Assembly (NCBI GenBank): GCA_002786855.1
Contig: PCUU01000065.1
Location: 1-64,000 of the forward strand
Length of the DNA: 64,000 bases
Source: Cytophagales bacterium CG12_big_fil_rev_8_21_14_0_65_40_12
Lineage (GTDB): Bacteria > Bacteroidota > Bacteroidia > Cytophagales > Cyclobacteriaceae
Direction of reading: 5' to 3'
Shown piece after piece: positions 39,269 through 45,240 of the stretch. Each line of letters begins with the position of its first letter. The stretch's first letter is position 1. Under the pieces are notes generated by a model that was not told the DNA's origin, did not search any database, and was given only the letters and a program-made list of their open reading frames with translations. Made by a program: the position numbers and the translations under genes.

Positions 39269-39304
39269 CACCGACAGACCTATAATAATAAGAAGTCTGT
39301 AGCG

Positions 39305-39336
39305 GAAATCATAGTTTTTGATAGGCTGATGTATGC
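39305..39336 (+). repeat. 32-bp direct repeat, copy 1
   Basis: gaaatcatagtttttgataggctgatgtatgc, identical to 43186-43217. Confidence 0.9.
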
Positions 39337-39606: not shown

Positions 39607-40800
39607 CTATTTCCATTCAGCACTGTTTTTAAAAGTAAGCCAGAGCAGTGCTGCATTTTTATTTGTAGAAATGACTGTGTTCTTCGATTTGAATGAGAAC
39701 TTACCTTCTGGTAAGGCATCAACAAATCCTTTGATTTTATCTGATTCAATTGTAAACACCAAACTATCCCCAATCCATTTTAATGGTACAAAGGATCTGT
39801 TTTCTAAAATTCCTTGATTGGACGACAATTTTTGATACTTACCGTTTCTTCTGTCAATCAATATAGAATGAAAGCCACCATATTGTTCAAATCTCAGAAA
39901 AATATAATTTTCTCCTACAGTATTCTTCATCTTAACTATTTTTTCACCGCTAGATTCTAGCTGCTTTGCCAGTGCTTTGTTACTGTAATATTCTTCTTTA
40001 TCCCAAACCCAGTCTTCACCTAAATCAATGGTAAATAAAGCATCGAAACTATGAGAAACCTCATTCCATTTAAACATTGTCTTGTTCAAAGGGTCTTGAT
40101 AAAGTATAGTTTCGCCATAGGGAACGAAGTTATTTGGCTGCCAACTTGTTCTGAAGGGCTCAGGGATTTTATAGGGTAATAAGCCAAACTGATATTCCAA
40201 ATCACTGTTCAACACAACAACACTCACAGAATCTTCTCCATTGTAAAGCCTGTCACTTGTGTCGAAAAAGAGTTGATCATTAAATGAATACATACCTGTA
40301 GTAGGATAGCCAATCGGTAAAGTTTTAACGAATTCTGCGTATGAGTTATAGTAGTTGATTCTTCTATTTGTCGCATCATAGACGGCAATATTCTGCCTAT
40401 CTAACCAGAAATACCATAGTGCATAGTAGTTTTCATCGGATTCCCCCATTCTTTTAAAGTTTCTGATCAAGTTACCTTGTGGATCGAAAAGGTGAATATT
40501 GCCAAAACCAAAGGGCGACACTACTATATTACCATTCCAGACATCAAAAAAAAGAATATGAGGAAGGTCAGTATCCTCAGTGTCTTGAAACAGGAATAGT
40601 TCCGCATTGCCAATTATCTCATTAATGGGTTGAACTTCACTATGTCCATCTATTTTATAGACCGTTTGTGATTCCTGCACTGACCACACACTGGGTGATG
40701 CCGTCCTTCTGGTATTACAAGATACTGACAGAATTAACATTAACCCGCATAAGGAGAAGCCGTAGTTGAGTTGAGTGATAAATTGTCTATTTTTATTCAT
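39607..40800 (-). CDS. Lipoprotein, probable 6-bladed beta-propeller protein
   Basis: Lipobox LSVSCNT; blade-like repeats (GNIHLFDPQGNLIRNFKR…RQNIAVYDATNRRINYYNSY). Confidence 0.7.
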   Translation of the reverse strand: MNKNRQFITQLNYGFSLCGLMLILSVSCNTRRTASPSVWSVQESQTVYKIDGHSEVQPINEIIGNAELFLFQDTEDTDLPHILFFDVWNGNIVVSPFGFGNIHLFDPQGNLIRNFKRMGESDENYYALWYFWLDRQNIAVYDATNRRINYYNSYAEFVKTLPIGYPTTGMYSFNDQLFFDTSDRLYNGEDSVSVVVLNSDLEYQFGLLPYKIPEPFRTSWQPNNFVPYGETILYQDPLNKTMFKWNEVSHSFDALFTIDLGEDWVWDKEEYYSNKALAKQLESSGEKIVKMKNTVGENYIFLRFEQYGGFHSILIDRRNGKYQKLSSNQGILENRSFVPLKWIGDSLVFTIESDKIKGFVDALPEGKFSFKSKNTVISTNKNAALLWLTFKNSAEWK

Positions 40801-41245
40801 CCAAAAGACGATTCAGAACATCCTTATTCTCAGGGCTAACATACTCGAATTTAATTGCCTTCCCATCCTTGAGATAAAAAACTGTCGGGTAAAATGAATA
40901 TATGTTACCAGCATTAAATTCATTGTCTTTGTCCAAGTAAACATTTTGTCGATTCAGGTCAATCCCCAATTTCATCTTTAACATTTTTTGTGAAGGTATT
41001 GCAGTAAAAATGACCAGTATTCGGTCAATTCGCTCAAAGTTCTCCATTACAAAATTCTCTGCACTTGAAACACACCCTGTGCATCCAGCCCCAGGGATTA
41101 TTAAAACTTTGTCAAACTCACTAATAACTAATTCATCTTTCGAAATTGACATTAACTTTCTCTGGAAATCGTTTATTGTATTACTCTTAATTGAGCACGA
41201 AGCCGAGACTGTCGCAACAAGAAGTATATACTTAAGCTTCATCAT
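40793..41245 (-). CDS. Small lipoprotein with GCTGC (CxxC) motif, thioredoxin-like
   Basis: Lipobox TVSASCS; VLIIPGAGCTGCVSSAENFV; later FYPTVFYLKDGK resembles thioredoxin cis-Pro region. Confidence 0.65.
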   Translation of the reverse strand: MMKLKYILLVATVSASCSIKSNTINDFQRKLMSISKDELVISEFDKVLIIPGAGCTGCVSSAENFVMENFERIDRILVIFTAIPSQKMLKMKLGIDLNRQNVYLDKDNEFNAGNIYSFYPTVFYLKDGKAIKFEYVSPENKDVLNRLLDE

Positions 41246-41247
41246 GT

Positions 41248-42399
41248 CTATCTTTCTTTAATGTTATAAATATCAAAGGTTAGATTATTTTCATCTTGGG
41301 AATCAACCAAAACATAAATCCCATCTTCCTGAAAAAACACAACCCATTCAATCATTAAGTCATTTTGTAATTCGCCTATTAGATTTACGGCCTCATCTCC
41401 TATCACTAAGACCTTGTTAAAATTGGTGGTGTCTCCAAAAGGGTTATTAATATCGACATTGTCTTCGTTCATTCCAGAGTAACCGGCCCTCAAAAAGAGT
41501 TTTCTGAACGGATCGTAATAAACATGACCATACCTCCCTTGACTAAAATAATATTTTCCTGATGCTTGAATGTCTTGGGCTATTTTAACAGATCCAATTG
41601 GAGTTATGGCTTTAACCAACCTACTACCAAAATACTTACTTCCGAAACTGCCATCCAACTTTTTAAATTGAACCTGAGGGTCGATAGGATAGCTATAGAT
41701 TCTAACCTTATCGTTTTCAGCTCTGTGGTATCGCAATTGTTCTAGCATCCACATTTCATTCTTATAAGCGATTGGAAGAGGACTATATTCTTTCTTGATC
41801 TTTTGTGTTTTTAGCGAAAACTCAAACTCCAAGGAATCAGGCAGATTATCTAATTTGACATACGGTGTTTGTGCAATTGTGCTAAAATTGAAGCCAGTGC
41901 CAGAATTAAAAAACCATCCTCTAGTCATGCCATATGGGGCTGTTTTGCCTTCCTTTCCAAAGTTATATCTGAATACTACATTTTTTTTAGAATCGACAAT
42001 AATCATTTCAAGTCTGCTTCGTGAATAGAACATCATAGAATCTCCTAAAAACTCATACTTAATGGTGCTATCAAATTTACCCAATCCATTTGGCCCATCT
42101 TTAACAAAATGCTGGATGGAATCATACATTCTCGTATCCAAATTGTAATAATAAATTGAGTTTGTATGATGATTTAAAAAAGTGAAATAATCGATTCCAT
42201 TCTTGGTTAATTTTTGAAACGCAACAGGTCTATTCGTGCTCAACGAATCCAACGGGATCCGGAGAACACCTACTTTTACAGCATCTATTTTGAACTCTAT
42301 CTCTGGAGCTGCTTGTAATACAATTGATTTATCTCCTTGACAAGAGATAATAATAACAATGAATAGAGCCGTAGCTGCAATTGGAATTAATTTTTTCAT
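41248..42399 (-). CDS. DUF4221-like lipoprotein
   Basis: Lipobox IIISCQG; beta-rich repetitive protein; gene context with propeller and NVEAL-like genes. Confidence 0.6.
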   Translation of the reverse strand: MKKLIPIAATALFIVIIISCQGDKSIVLQAAPEIEFKIDAVKVGVLRIPLDSLSTNRPVAFQKLTKNGIDYFTFLNHHTNSIYYYNLDTRMYDSIQHFVKDGPNGLGKFDSTIKYEFLGDSMMFYSRSRLEMIIVDSKKNVVFRYNFGKEGKTAPYGMTRGWFFNSGTGFNFSTIAQTPYVKLDNLPDSLEFEFSLKTQKIKKEYSPLPIAYKNEMWMLEQLRYHRAENDKVRIYSYPIDPQVQFKKLDGSFGSKYFGSRLVKAITPIGSVKIAQDIQASGKYYFSQGRYGHVYYDPFRKLFLRAGYSGMNEDNVDINNPFGDTTNFNKVLVIGDEAVNLIGELQNDLMIEWVVFFQEDGIYVLVDSQDENNLTFDIYNIKER

Positions 42400-42404
42400 G
42401 ATTT

Positions 42405-42433
42405 GAAAAAATCTGAGGCTTCTGACCTCAGAT
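42405..42433 (-). terminator. Hairpin plus T-tract between small peptide gene and DUF4221-like gene
   Basis: Minus strand: ATCTGAGG-TCAGAAG-CCTCAGAT followed by TTTTTT; perfect 8-bp stem, 7-nt loop. Confidence 0.75.
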
Positions 42434-42482
42434 CTTTAGGTTAAAAATGCGAGAATAAAAAGTCTTTCCTAATTTAGTAGAA

Positions 42483-42668
42483 TTAGGCAGAACAGTTTTC
42501 AAACACAACTACCTCAGTTTCACAATAGTGACCCTCCTCACCCCAAGTACAAGTACCAGACTTTCCGTTAGCTACTTGACCGCAACTTGCATTTATTTGA
42601 AGCGCAATTGCTGAACCAATCAACATTAGACTAAATACTGAAATTACTCTTTTACGTACATTTTTCAT
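42483..42668 (-). CDS. Small exported cysteine-rich peptide (NVEAL-like), 61 aa
   Basis: MKNVRKRVISVFSLMLIGSAIALQINASC… hydrophobic leader, Cys at 29, 40, 49, 59. The ORF extends to 42719 but the internal Met at 42668 is the natural start. Confidence 0.65.
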   Translation of the reverse strand: MKNVRKRVISVFSLMLIGSAIALQINASCGQVANGKSGTCTWGEEGHYCETEVVVFENCSA

Positions 42669-42959: not shown

Positions 42960-43185
42960 TATTTTCCAAATTTGCTGTACAGAACATTTTTCTATATATG
43001 AAATTCGAAAGTTATATTTGTTTTCTTAAGCTTTTTTGTCGGCTAAGGCATTATCAATGATGTCAGCCAAATTTGAAACAAGGGTTTTTAGAATGGCTGA
43101 AAGTAATAATTCTGTGCCTTTCACTAACGTCTGCCAATAGCCATAAAGCTCATAAGACAGAACGATCTTAAAAAATATTGAGGCA

Positions 43186-43217
43186 GAAATCATAGTTTTT
43201 GATAGGCTGATGTATGC
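43186..43217 (+). repeat. 32-bp direct repeat, copy 2
   Basis: gaaatcatagtttttgataggctgatgtatgc, identical to 39305-39336. Confidence 0.9.
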
Positions 43218-43294: not shown

Positions 43295-43470
43295 GCAAAG
43301 CCGAGCGACTGGGGAAGGTCACTGAAAAAGGTCGCTCCTATGGAGCTTGTGATCTTTGGTTACTATAGATTTCTATTAACAGAATACCCCTCTGGGGTTT
43401 TCCGTCCCATAGGGACGATCTGTTAATAGAAAGCGTGAATCCTTATTTCAATTAGCCCTGTTGGGGCGAC
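43295..43470. repeat. Intergenic palindromic element with nested inverted repeats
   Basis: TTTCTATTAACAG (43370-43382) / CTGTTAATAGAAA (43420-43432) enclosing CCCC-TCT-GGGG and CGTCCC-ATA-GGGACG; flanked by GCTCC-TAT-GGAGC and the GCAAAGCCGAGCGACT 16-mer. Confidence 0.75.
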
Positions 43471-43620: not shown

Positions 43621-45240
43621 TTACTCTCTTTTCATCTCTTGAATCTGGTCGGCTTCTTCGAAGATTTTGAGGAAGGCGATCGCAACGCCATTCGTCCAAC
43701 CAAAGCCATCTTGCAAGGCATACTCTCCACCACCCGCCAAAAGTGAAACGTCCATTACATTGTACTTTTCAACCATTTTACCAGTAGACTTGTATACTGC
43801 CTTATTCCTTTCTAACCAGCGGATTGCACCTTCATTACCCAATTCGTCAAAATCATAGAAGTATAATCCGTTGACTGTTATCCACTGAAGAGGCGCCCAA
43901 GCATTTGGTGCGTCCCATTGCTGACCAGTCGGGTTATTTGTAGTGATAAATCCACCAGGTTTTAAGAATTCGCTTTCCAAAATTGCCGCCACTTTTTTGG
44001 CTTGCGCCTTATCAGCCATTTTGAAAAAGAGAGGATAAGCACCTGCTAAAGAAAGTACACCAGTCGGTGATTTAGCCACAAAGTCGTAATCCACGAAAAA
44101 ACCAGCTTGTTCGTCCCAAAGGTATTTCATGATGGCTGCCTTGCGAGAAGCCGCTTTGTCTAAGTACTCTTGCGCCTTAGTCAGTTCCTCTGTCCAGTTA
44201 TAGCCTTGGGCTATTTTAAGTTCTAAATGGTAAAGCAGCGTATTCAAATCGACAGGTATGATTTCTGTAGTGTGAATGGTCGCTAAAGTCTGGGCATCTT
44301 TGAACCAACGGCTTGAATAATCCCAACCAGATTCTGCGCCTGCACGCAAATCCCTAAAGATTTTTTCCTTGTCACCACCTACTTTCTCAGCGAGTTCATA
44401 ATCTTCACGATAAGATTCAGGACGCGGTAAGGGATAATTATCCCAGTAGCGGTTCAGGAGACTTCCATCCTCCATCATTACAACACGATTATTGGCTTCA
44501 TCCGCTTTAAGCGTTTCAGCACCCTTCATCCAGAAGTCATATTCTTTTTGCAAGGCTGGTAAGAAGGATTCGAAAAGAGTACGGTCGTTTTTAGCAACAC
44601 GATCTACCATCACCGAGAAAAACGGAGGCTGCGAACGACCACCGTAATAAGCACGATTCCCATTCGGCACGAAACCAATTGAATCAATTAAGAAAGCAAA
44701 ATTCTTAGTCATGTTGATGGCCATATCCTCTTGGCCAGAAATCATTAATCCTTCCAAGGTGAAATAGCTATCCCAATAATAAATTTCCCTGAAACGGCCA
44801 CCAGGCACTATAAAGTCGTTAGGTAGTGGAATTAAAGAAGAGCGAGAAGACACATCGCCAGCTTTTCTTGTCAATACTGGCCAAAGGTCAATGATGTGCT
44901 GCTTCATTGTTTTCGAAGTATCCGAAGCAAAGTCTTTAGAGAAGGTATATGGCATATCAAAATTTGCCTCCACAAATGCCTTTATACTGAAACCATCTTG
45001 CTCTTTCTGGGCATTGTAATCTTTTTCAATAGCGGCTATATCGCGCTTGGCTGTACAATCCACAAAGGTTTTAGAGTCTTCGAAAATCTGCGCCATTTGA
45101 ATGTCGTGAAACATCTCTGAAGCATAGAACTTCTGAAAATCGACAGCACCTTCCTGCTTAGGGCTACAAGAAAAAAAGGCCAGCGAAATCAGCGCTAGCC
45201 CTAAAATAAGTTTGGTTTGATTACTTTTCATTTGCTGCAA
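43621..45240 (-). CDS. GH37 trehalase (lipoprotein)
   Basis: GH37 signatures PGGRFREIYYWDSYFTLEGL and QWDAPNAWAPLQ; lipobox LAFFSCS. Confidence 0.94.
   Translation of the reverse strand: MQQMKSNQTKLILGLALISLAFFSCSPKQEGAVDFQKFYASEMFHDIQMAQIFEDSKTFVDCTAKRDIAAIEKDYNAQKEQDGFSIKAFVEANFDMPYTFSKDFASDTSKTMKQHIIDLWPVLTRKAGDVSSRSSLIPLPNDFIVPGGRFREIYYWDSYFTLEGLMISGQEDMAINMTKNFAFLIDSIGFVPNGNRAYYGGRSQPPFFSVMVDRVAKNDRTLFESFLPALQKEYDFWMKGAETLKADEANNRVVMMEDGSLLNRYWDNYPLPRPESYREDYELAEKVGGDKEKIFRDLRAGAESGWDYSSRWFKDAQTLATIHTTEIIPVDLNTLLYHLELKIAQGYNWTEELTKAQEYLDKAASRKAAIMKYLWDEQAGFFVDYDFVAKSPTGVLSLAGAYPLFFKMADKAQAKKVAAILESEFLKPGGFITTNNPTGQQWDAPNAWAPLQWITVNGLYFYDFDELGNEGAIRWLERNKAVYKSTGKMVEKYNVMDVSLLAGGGEYALQDGFGWTNGVAIAFLKIFEEADQIQEMKRE

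Follow-up and report, generated by a model that had tools for sequence, protein, structure and literature searches.

The window, which is the whole stretch of 64,000 nucleotides that was analysed, carries on its minus strand four closely spaced genes, encoding an exported four-cysteine peptide, a DUF4221 lipoprotein, a CxxC lipoprotein and a DUF5128 lipoprotein. We consider that these genes are best explained, at somewhat less than even confidence, as a horizontally acquired, self-contained cassette that would export a disulfide peptide, which the CxxC protein would fold and the propellers bind. More tentatively, we propose that the cassette represents an undescribed class of mobile peptide cassettes, widespread in Bacteroidota, each combining a Sec-exported four-cysteine effector with its own thioredoxin-fold lipoprotein and cognate propellers in 2-4 kb; these units would be recombinase-free, would insert beside genes leaving direct repeats, and would have the NVEALA clusters as their elaborated form. 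The first-pass annotation had listed the same four genes, and their order and positions, the 2-bp gap between the DUF4221 and CxxC genes, the 8-bp overlap between the CxxC and DUF5128 genes, the cysteine positions of the 61-aa peptide and the 150-aa CxxC lipoprotein all hold in the sequence. DUF4221 starts 83 nt after the end of the peptide gene. Simple in-house rules were used throughout to call genes and signal peptides. No dedicated exporter, protease or regulator was found among the cassette genes, and no recombinase inside the units.

Table 1. Features of the cassette and its flanks, in window coordinates.
Feature	Position	Strand	Basis
61-aa exported peptide, Cys 29/40/49/59	42483..42668	-	ORF (ATG at 42668, stop at 42483), Cys alignment, genus-wide profile match E 7e-9
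Terminator-like hairpin, peptide/DUF4221 gap	42400..42445	-	-16.2 kcal/mol, z -4.8, T run at end
DUF4221 (PF13970) beta-propeller lipoprotein, 383 aa	41248..42399	-	Pfam E 6e-15; AF2 pLDDT 84.1; top fold match 3s9j, TM 0.77
CxxC lipoprotein with predicted thioredoxin fold, 150 aa; CTGC = C55/C58; cis-Pro-type P120	40793..41245	-	Homologue alignment, AF2 model, fold matches
DUF5128 (PF17170) 6-bladed beta-propeller lipoprotein, 397 aa	39607..40800	-	Pfam E 2e-16; lipobox LSVSC read from sequence
35-nt direct repeat, left copy	39302..39336	.	34/35 identical to right copy
35-nt direct repeat, right copy	43183..43217	.	Pairs with left copy 39302..39336

The peptide reads MKNVRKRVISVFSLMLIGSAIALQINA-SCGQVANGKSGTCTWGEEGHYCETEVVVFENCSA, where the dash marks the putative cleavage point. 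Its N-terminus is a 27-residue hydrophobic signal, and cleavage after INA would leave a mature peptide of about residues 28-61. A lack of conservation of the cysteine positions had been named beforehand as a ground for rejecting the proposal; we found instead that all four are shared by 22 highly divergent peptides of related loci (alignment A2), Cys 29, 40 and 49 being invariant and Cys 59 near-invariant, with one misaligned row as the exception. A G-x-C at the second cysteine is also kept across the 22. The only close pair of peptides, from loci L029 and L030, has a dN of 0.16-0.29 and saturated dS, which argues that these reading frames are translated and under selection; as judged from the codons, the pair shows purifying selection, the mature part being under stronger constraint than the signal. 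At both loci (L029, 4265-6668), two genes for Lnb-type membrane proteins (PF13387/PF25221) lie directly upstream of the peptide pair. Three A2 peptides match DUF6520 weakly. Lactococcin 972 was rejected for the window peptide, with 15.4 bits for a cut-off of 32.1 and a weak match lying mostly in the signal region.

The two large lipoproteins, at first described as beta-rich, proved to be propellers, by Pfam in both cases (DUF4221, 56 bits for a cut-off of 23.4; DUF5128, 60.7 bits for a cut-off of 22.9) and by an AF2 model and fold search for the DUF4221 protein. The latter is modelled as a beta-propeller, and BtuG/BtuH-like structures are also among its fold matches. No lipoprotein surface-export signal is evident. 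The CxxC lipoprotein, which carries GAGCTGC, has no match in Pfam, thioredoxin models included. In 16 homologues C17, P51, C55, C58 and K87 are invariant and G54, D105 and P120 near-invariant, and close relatives of the protein are found in Roseivirga spongicola and R. pacifica (contig search with three CxxC sequences). A confident AlphaFold model (pLDDT 91.9) predicts a minimal thioredoxin fold of ResA/TlpA type: the nearest PDB folds are of this type, the ResA matches having E values of 5e-4 to 2e-3, a probability of about 1 and a modest TM of 0.38-0.48. The earlier suggestion that this protein handles the peptide gains from the thioredoxin-fold prediction for a CxxC lipoprotein, from which we can soundly infer that it would act on the peptide's thiols.

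The gap that follows the peptide gene folds into a hairpin ending in Ts (Table 1). Hairpins at z<=-2 are present in 12/17 peptide-DUF4221 gaps, compared with 26/93 control gaps, a set that includes genuine terminators, so that the excess is an enrichment and not a proof. Given such a strong hairpin behind its gene, the peptide is probably produced in excess over the lipoproteins.

Using the CxxC protein as a probe in 59 relatives, we obtained 17 loci in 11 genomes and inspected 16 of them with wider flanks. At least one exported Cys-rich ORF lies beside DUF4221 in 15 of these 16, and six hold two or three peptides; co-occurrence counts of this kind are biased because the CxxC gene itself served to find the loci. 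The exception is L028, in which a stop interrupts the CxxC gene; in L033 the peptide required a non-ATG reading. In a second set of 31 loci, gathered later by profile, inspection showed a peptide with four or more cysteines at 17, and several of the loci without one have broken genes, contig ends or two-cysteine ORFs. By a mechanical rule, an exported Cys-rich ORF occurs within 700 bp upstream of 30/56 DUF4221 genes, compared with 10/430 other genes (Fisher p 5e-24), the latter being neighbours at loci gathered through the CxxC gene and not a random genome sample. Among 73 DUF4221 genes, 13 are accompanied by a peptide but lack a CxxC gene next to them, and for 14 a CxxC gene is present but no peptide was detected. 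In Prevotella oulorum (L047, 2905-6710) an O-antigen-ligase-like gene is followed by DUF4221, CxxC and then a Cys-rich peptide, whose coding sequence is split over two frames (a frameshift or an assembly error).

In a search with the peptide profile, 19 whole genomes of the genus yielded 23 matches at E<=1e-3, all at DUF4221/CxxC cassettes and distributed over nine genomes, all of them among the ten that have the CxxC gene. The first-pass annotation had held that its proposal would fall if the lipoproteins mostly occurred without the peptide, and for the large lipoproteins the answer is divided: DUF4221 is present in 15/19 of these genomes and the A2-type peptide in nine, while in the genome of the window 6/8 DUF4221 copies adjoin an exported four-cysteine peptide, some of other sequence types. 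An adjacent CxxC gene is found at 4/8 of these copies. Moreover, a well-conserved DUF4221 group of about 385 aa (L190-L192, L196) has no accompanying peptide; some DUF4221 genes thus stand outside the cassette system.

Across 26 cassettes, pairwise similarities are correlated among peptide, DUF4221 and CxxC (r 0.23-0.54), and Mantel tests of peptide-DUF4221, peptide-CxxC and DUF4221-CxxC all give p <= 0.002. That all four genes evolve as a single unit, in keeping with the system first proposed, is supported by these tests of three of them. An independent-pairs test of CxxC against peptide is no more than suggestive (median p 0.07). A strict one-to-one pairing is not favoured, since L031 and L125 have similar peptides (0.54) and dissimilar DUF4221 proteins (0.21). 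Divergence is pronounced: the best match of the DUF4221 protein of the window cassette is 34% identical, whereas the adjacent symporter shows 75-84% identity within the genus, and similar but highly sequence-divergent units recur across Bacteroidota.

The unit has 34.9% GC, compared with 40.6% for the window, and lies between two direct repeats (Table 1) whose 32-nt core occurs exactly twice in the genome and is absent, at up to 3 mismatches, from 18 congeners. In 8/8 relatives the symporter and haloperoxidase genes are adjacent, with neither cassette nor trehalase. Read from these genome comparisons, the cassette as a whole is an AT-rich insert lying between the sole two genomic copies of the 35-nt repeat. 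The trehalase gene beside it (43621-45240) is also missing at the same locus in eight relatives, and an imperfect 27-nt inverted repeat with a 9-nt loop (window 43370-43432) lies between the right repeat and the trehalase. In a circular form, a reading frame would be joined through the repeat; it has no Pfam match. Other cassettes (L026, L031, L037, L038, L120, L129) are flanked by direct repeats of 25-111 nt, and in all of these except L120 one copy falls within or at the 3' portion of a neighbouring gene; the L026 repeat is the end of a gene read as tsf. L117 and L118 are bracketed by larger repeats. Control segments have such repeats in 8/323 cases, of which seven overlap cassettes L117, L118 and L136. 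The repeat pairs in L123, L125 and L046 look like the repeated leader or promoter of tandem peptide genes and not like insertion marks. In L046 (Thermoflexibacter ruber), tandem peptide-DUF4221-CxxC modules have a common leader before several peptides, and two modules are followed by a UDP-glycosyltransferase-like gene. A phage origin was rejected: viral contigs hold no relative of the CxxC protein, and the right flank has no phage DNA match. An integrase acting in trans, homologous capture and a past tandem duplication are the candidate modes of movement.

In the mechanism that we propose, Sec would export the 61-aa precursor and signal peptidase would free a peptide of about 34 aa, whose four cysteines would probably form two disulfides. 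The CxxC lipoprotein, anchored in the periplasm, would form or reshuffle these disulfides, and the DUF4221 and DUF5128 propellers would bind the folded peptide as its cognate carrier, receptor or immunity protein. The hairpin would allow the peptide to exceed the lipoproteins, and the cassette would move between genomes as one unit and diversify quickly. Mobility and fast divergence lead us to lean towards a role of the peptide between strains, in which antagonism seems likelier than signalling.

A stronger and more specific form of this explanation, which we regard as unlikely but as a serious contender, is a bacteriocin-like unit whose peptide kills related strains and whose propeller lipoprotein is the immunity protein. 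The patchy occurrence of the cassette, the extreme divergence of DUF4221 beside its conserved symporter neighbour and the movement as a unit would fit, as would the association of a four-cysteine peptide with a thiol oxidoreductase, known from bacteroidetocins (PMC6671954); however, several loci have two or three peptides per DUF4221, no exporter is present, and bacteroidetocins themselves have no immunity gene (PMC6671954). Patchy presence, mobility and rapid divergence would in turn be unusual for a house-keeping part of the envelope, and make it rather improbable that the unit is structural or adhesive, with a CxxC-matured peptide that would be a subunit or lid of the envelope propellers and have no intercellular role, even though peptide genes adjoin propeller genes throughout and at some loci there is one propeller for each peptide. 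We hold it quite improbable that the peptide is a pheromone which the propeller lipoproteins receive or capture: the cassettes examined have no gene for a sensor kinase, anti-sigma factor or regulator in or beside them, and no propeller lipoprotein of Bacteroidota is known to have a peptide as its ligand, although propeller lipoproteins can be ligand binders at the Bacteroides surface, as in BtuG (PMC6143338), and BtuG/BtuH-like folds are among the matches. Finally, an untranslated chance ORF in an accidental neighbourhood, a notion helped by the window peptide having no close homologue for a selection test, is contradicted by the conserved cysteines of the 22 peptides, the enrichment upstream of DUF4221, the selection in L029/L030 and the cassette-only matches across the genus, and is hardly credible.

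The openly licensed papers searched yielded none on DUF4221 or NVEALA and no reported function for such units. DUF4221, DUF5128 and NVEALA are among many unassigned Bacteroidota families; once the propeller lipoproteins are tied to one particular exported cysteine peptide and one particular redox partner, three unknowns become a single system open to testing. Should the peptides act as antibacterials or signals, the loci would form a large, diverse and untapped set that a simple rule can recognise. The repeat-bounded insertion of a unit that lacks a recombinase raises the separate question of how such short cassettes move.

Compared with known systems, the CxxC protein resembles the ResA/TlpA-type periplasmic thiol-disulfide oxidoreductases in its modelled thioredoxin fold, CxxC, cis-Pro position and membrane anchor, but is smaller, has no Pfam thioredoxin match and lies outside any cytochrome-maturation context. 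The DUF4221 protein has the family and fold of BVU_1028 (PDB 3s9j), with only 16% identity over the structural alignment. The peptide had been called NVEAL-like, and this part of the first reading was lost: PF14055 matches neither the window peptide nor any of the 22 A2 peptides, the NVEAL motif is absent from alignment A2 and nearly invariant in the NVEALA alignment (A5), and in a profile-profile comparison with genuine NVEALA peptides only the signal peptide aligns, which together rule out membership. PF14055 has two weak matches in this genome, one of them inside a DUF4221 reading frame. The neighbourhood described for such peptides in the first-pass annotation was borne out, since true NVEALA loci hold propeller and CxxC redoxin-like lipoproteins. 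In the NVEALA loci sampled (Prevotella family, Parapedobacter), the short exported Cys peptides adjoin PF17170 or PF15869 propellers, and in Bacteroidales and Parapedobacter clusters sometimes DUF4221; several loci also have CxxC lipoproteins near the peptide, an S26 signal peptidase, an O-antigen ligase and a transglutaminase-like protein. The S26 peptidase, the ligase family and a transglutaminase/F5-8C-like protein recur in L071, L074 and L054, and such neighbours suggest that NVEALA peptides receive extra processing or conjugation. The window cassette, in contrast, lacks these three genes and the NVEAL motif, and its cysteines begin right after the signal peptide. Propeller and CxxC neighbours being common to both and not NVEALA-defining, the window cassette is, by its gene content and peptide sequence, an NVEALA kind of neighbourhood and not a member of the family.

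Bacteroidetocins (class IIf bacteriocins) likewise have a four-cysteine peptide, close in mature length to the one described here, and in the same locus a thiol oxidoreductase, the loss of which weakens toxin activity, in Bacteroides that are said to be without general disulfide machinery (PMC6671954). The window peptide fails as a bacteroidetocin, since its signal is of the Sec type, where bacteroidetocins have a 15-aa GG leader, and it has no GG site; the cassette and its direct neighbours have no ABC transporter with a double-glycine peptidase and no 5-TM protein, and the cassette has propeller lipoproteins, unlike the bacteroidetocin loci. As a model of mechanism, the bacteroidetocin locus is still the closest tested precedent for the window cassette.
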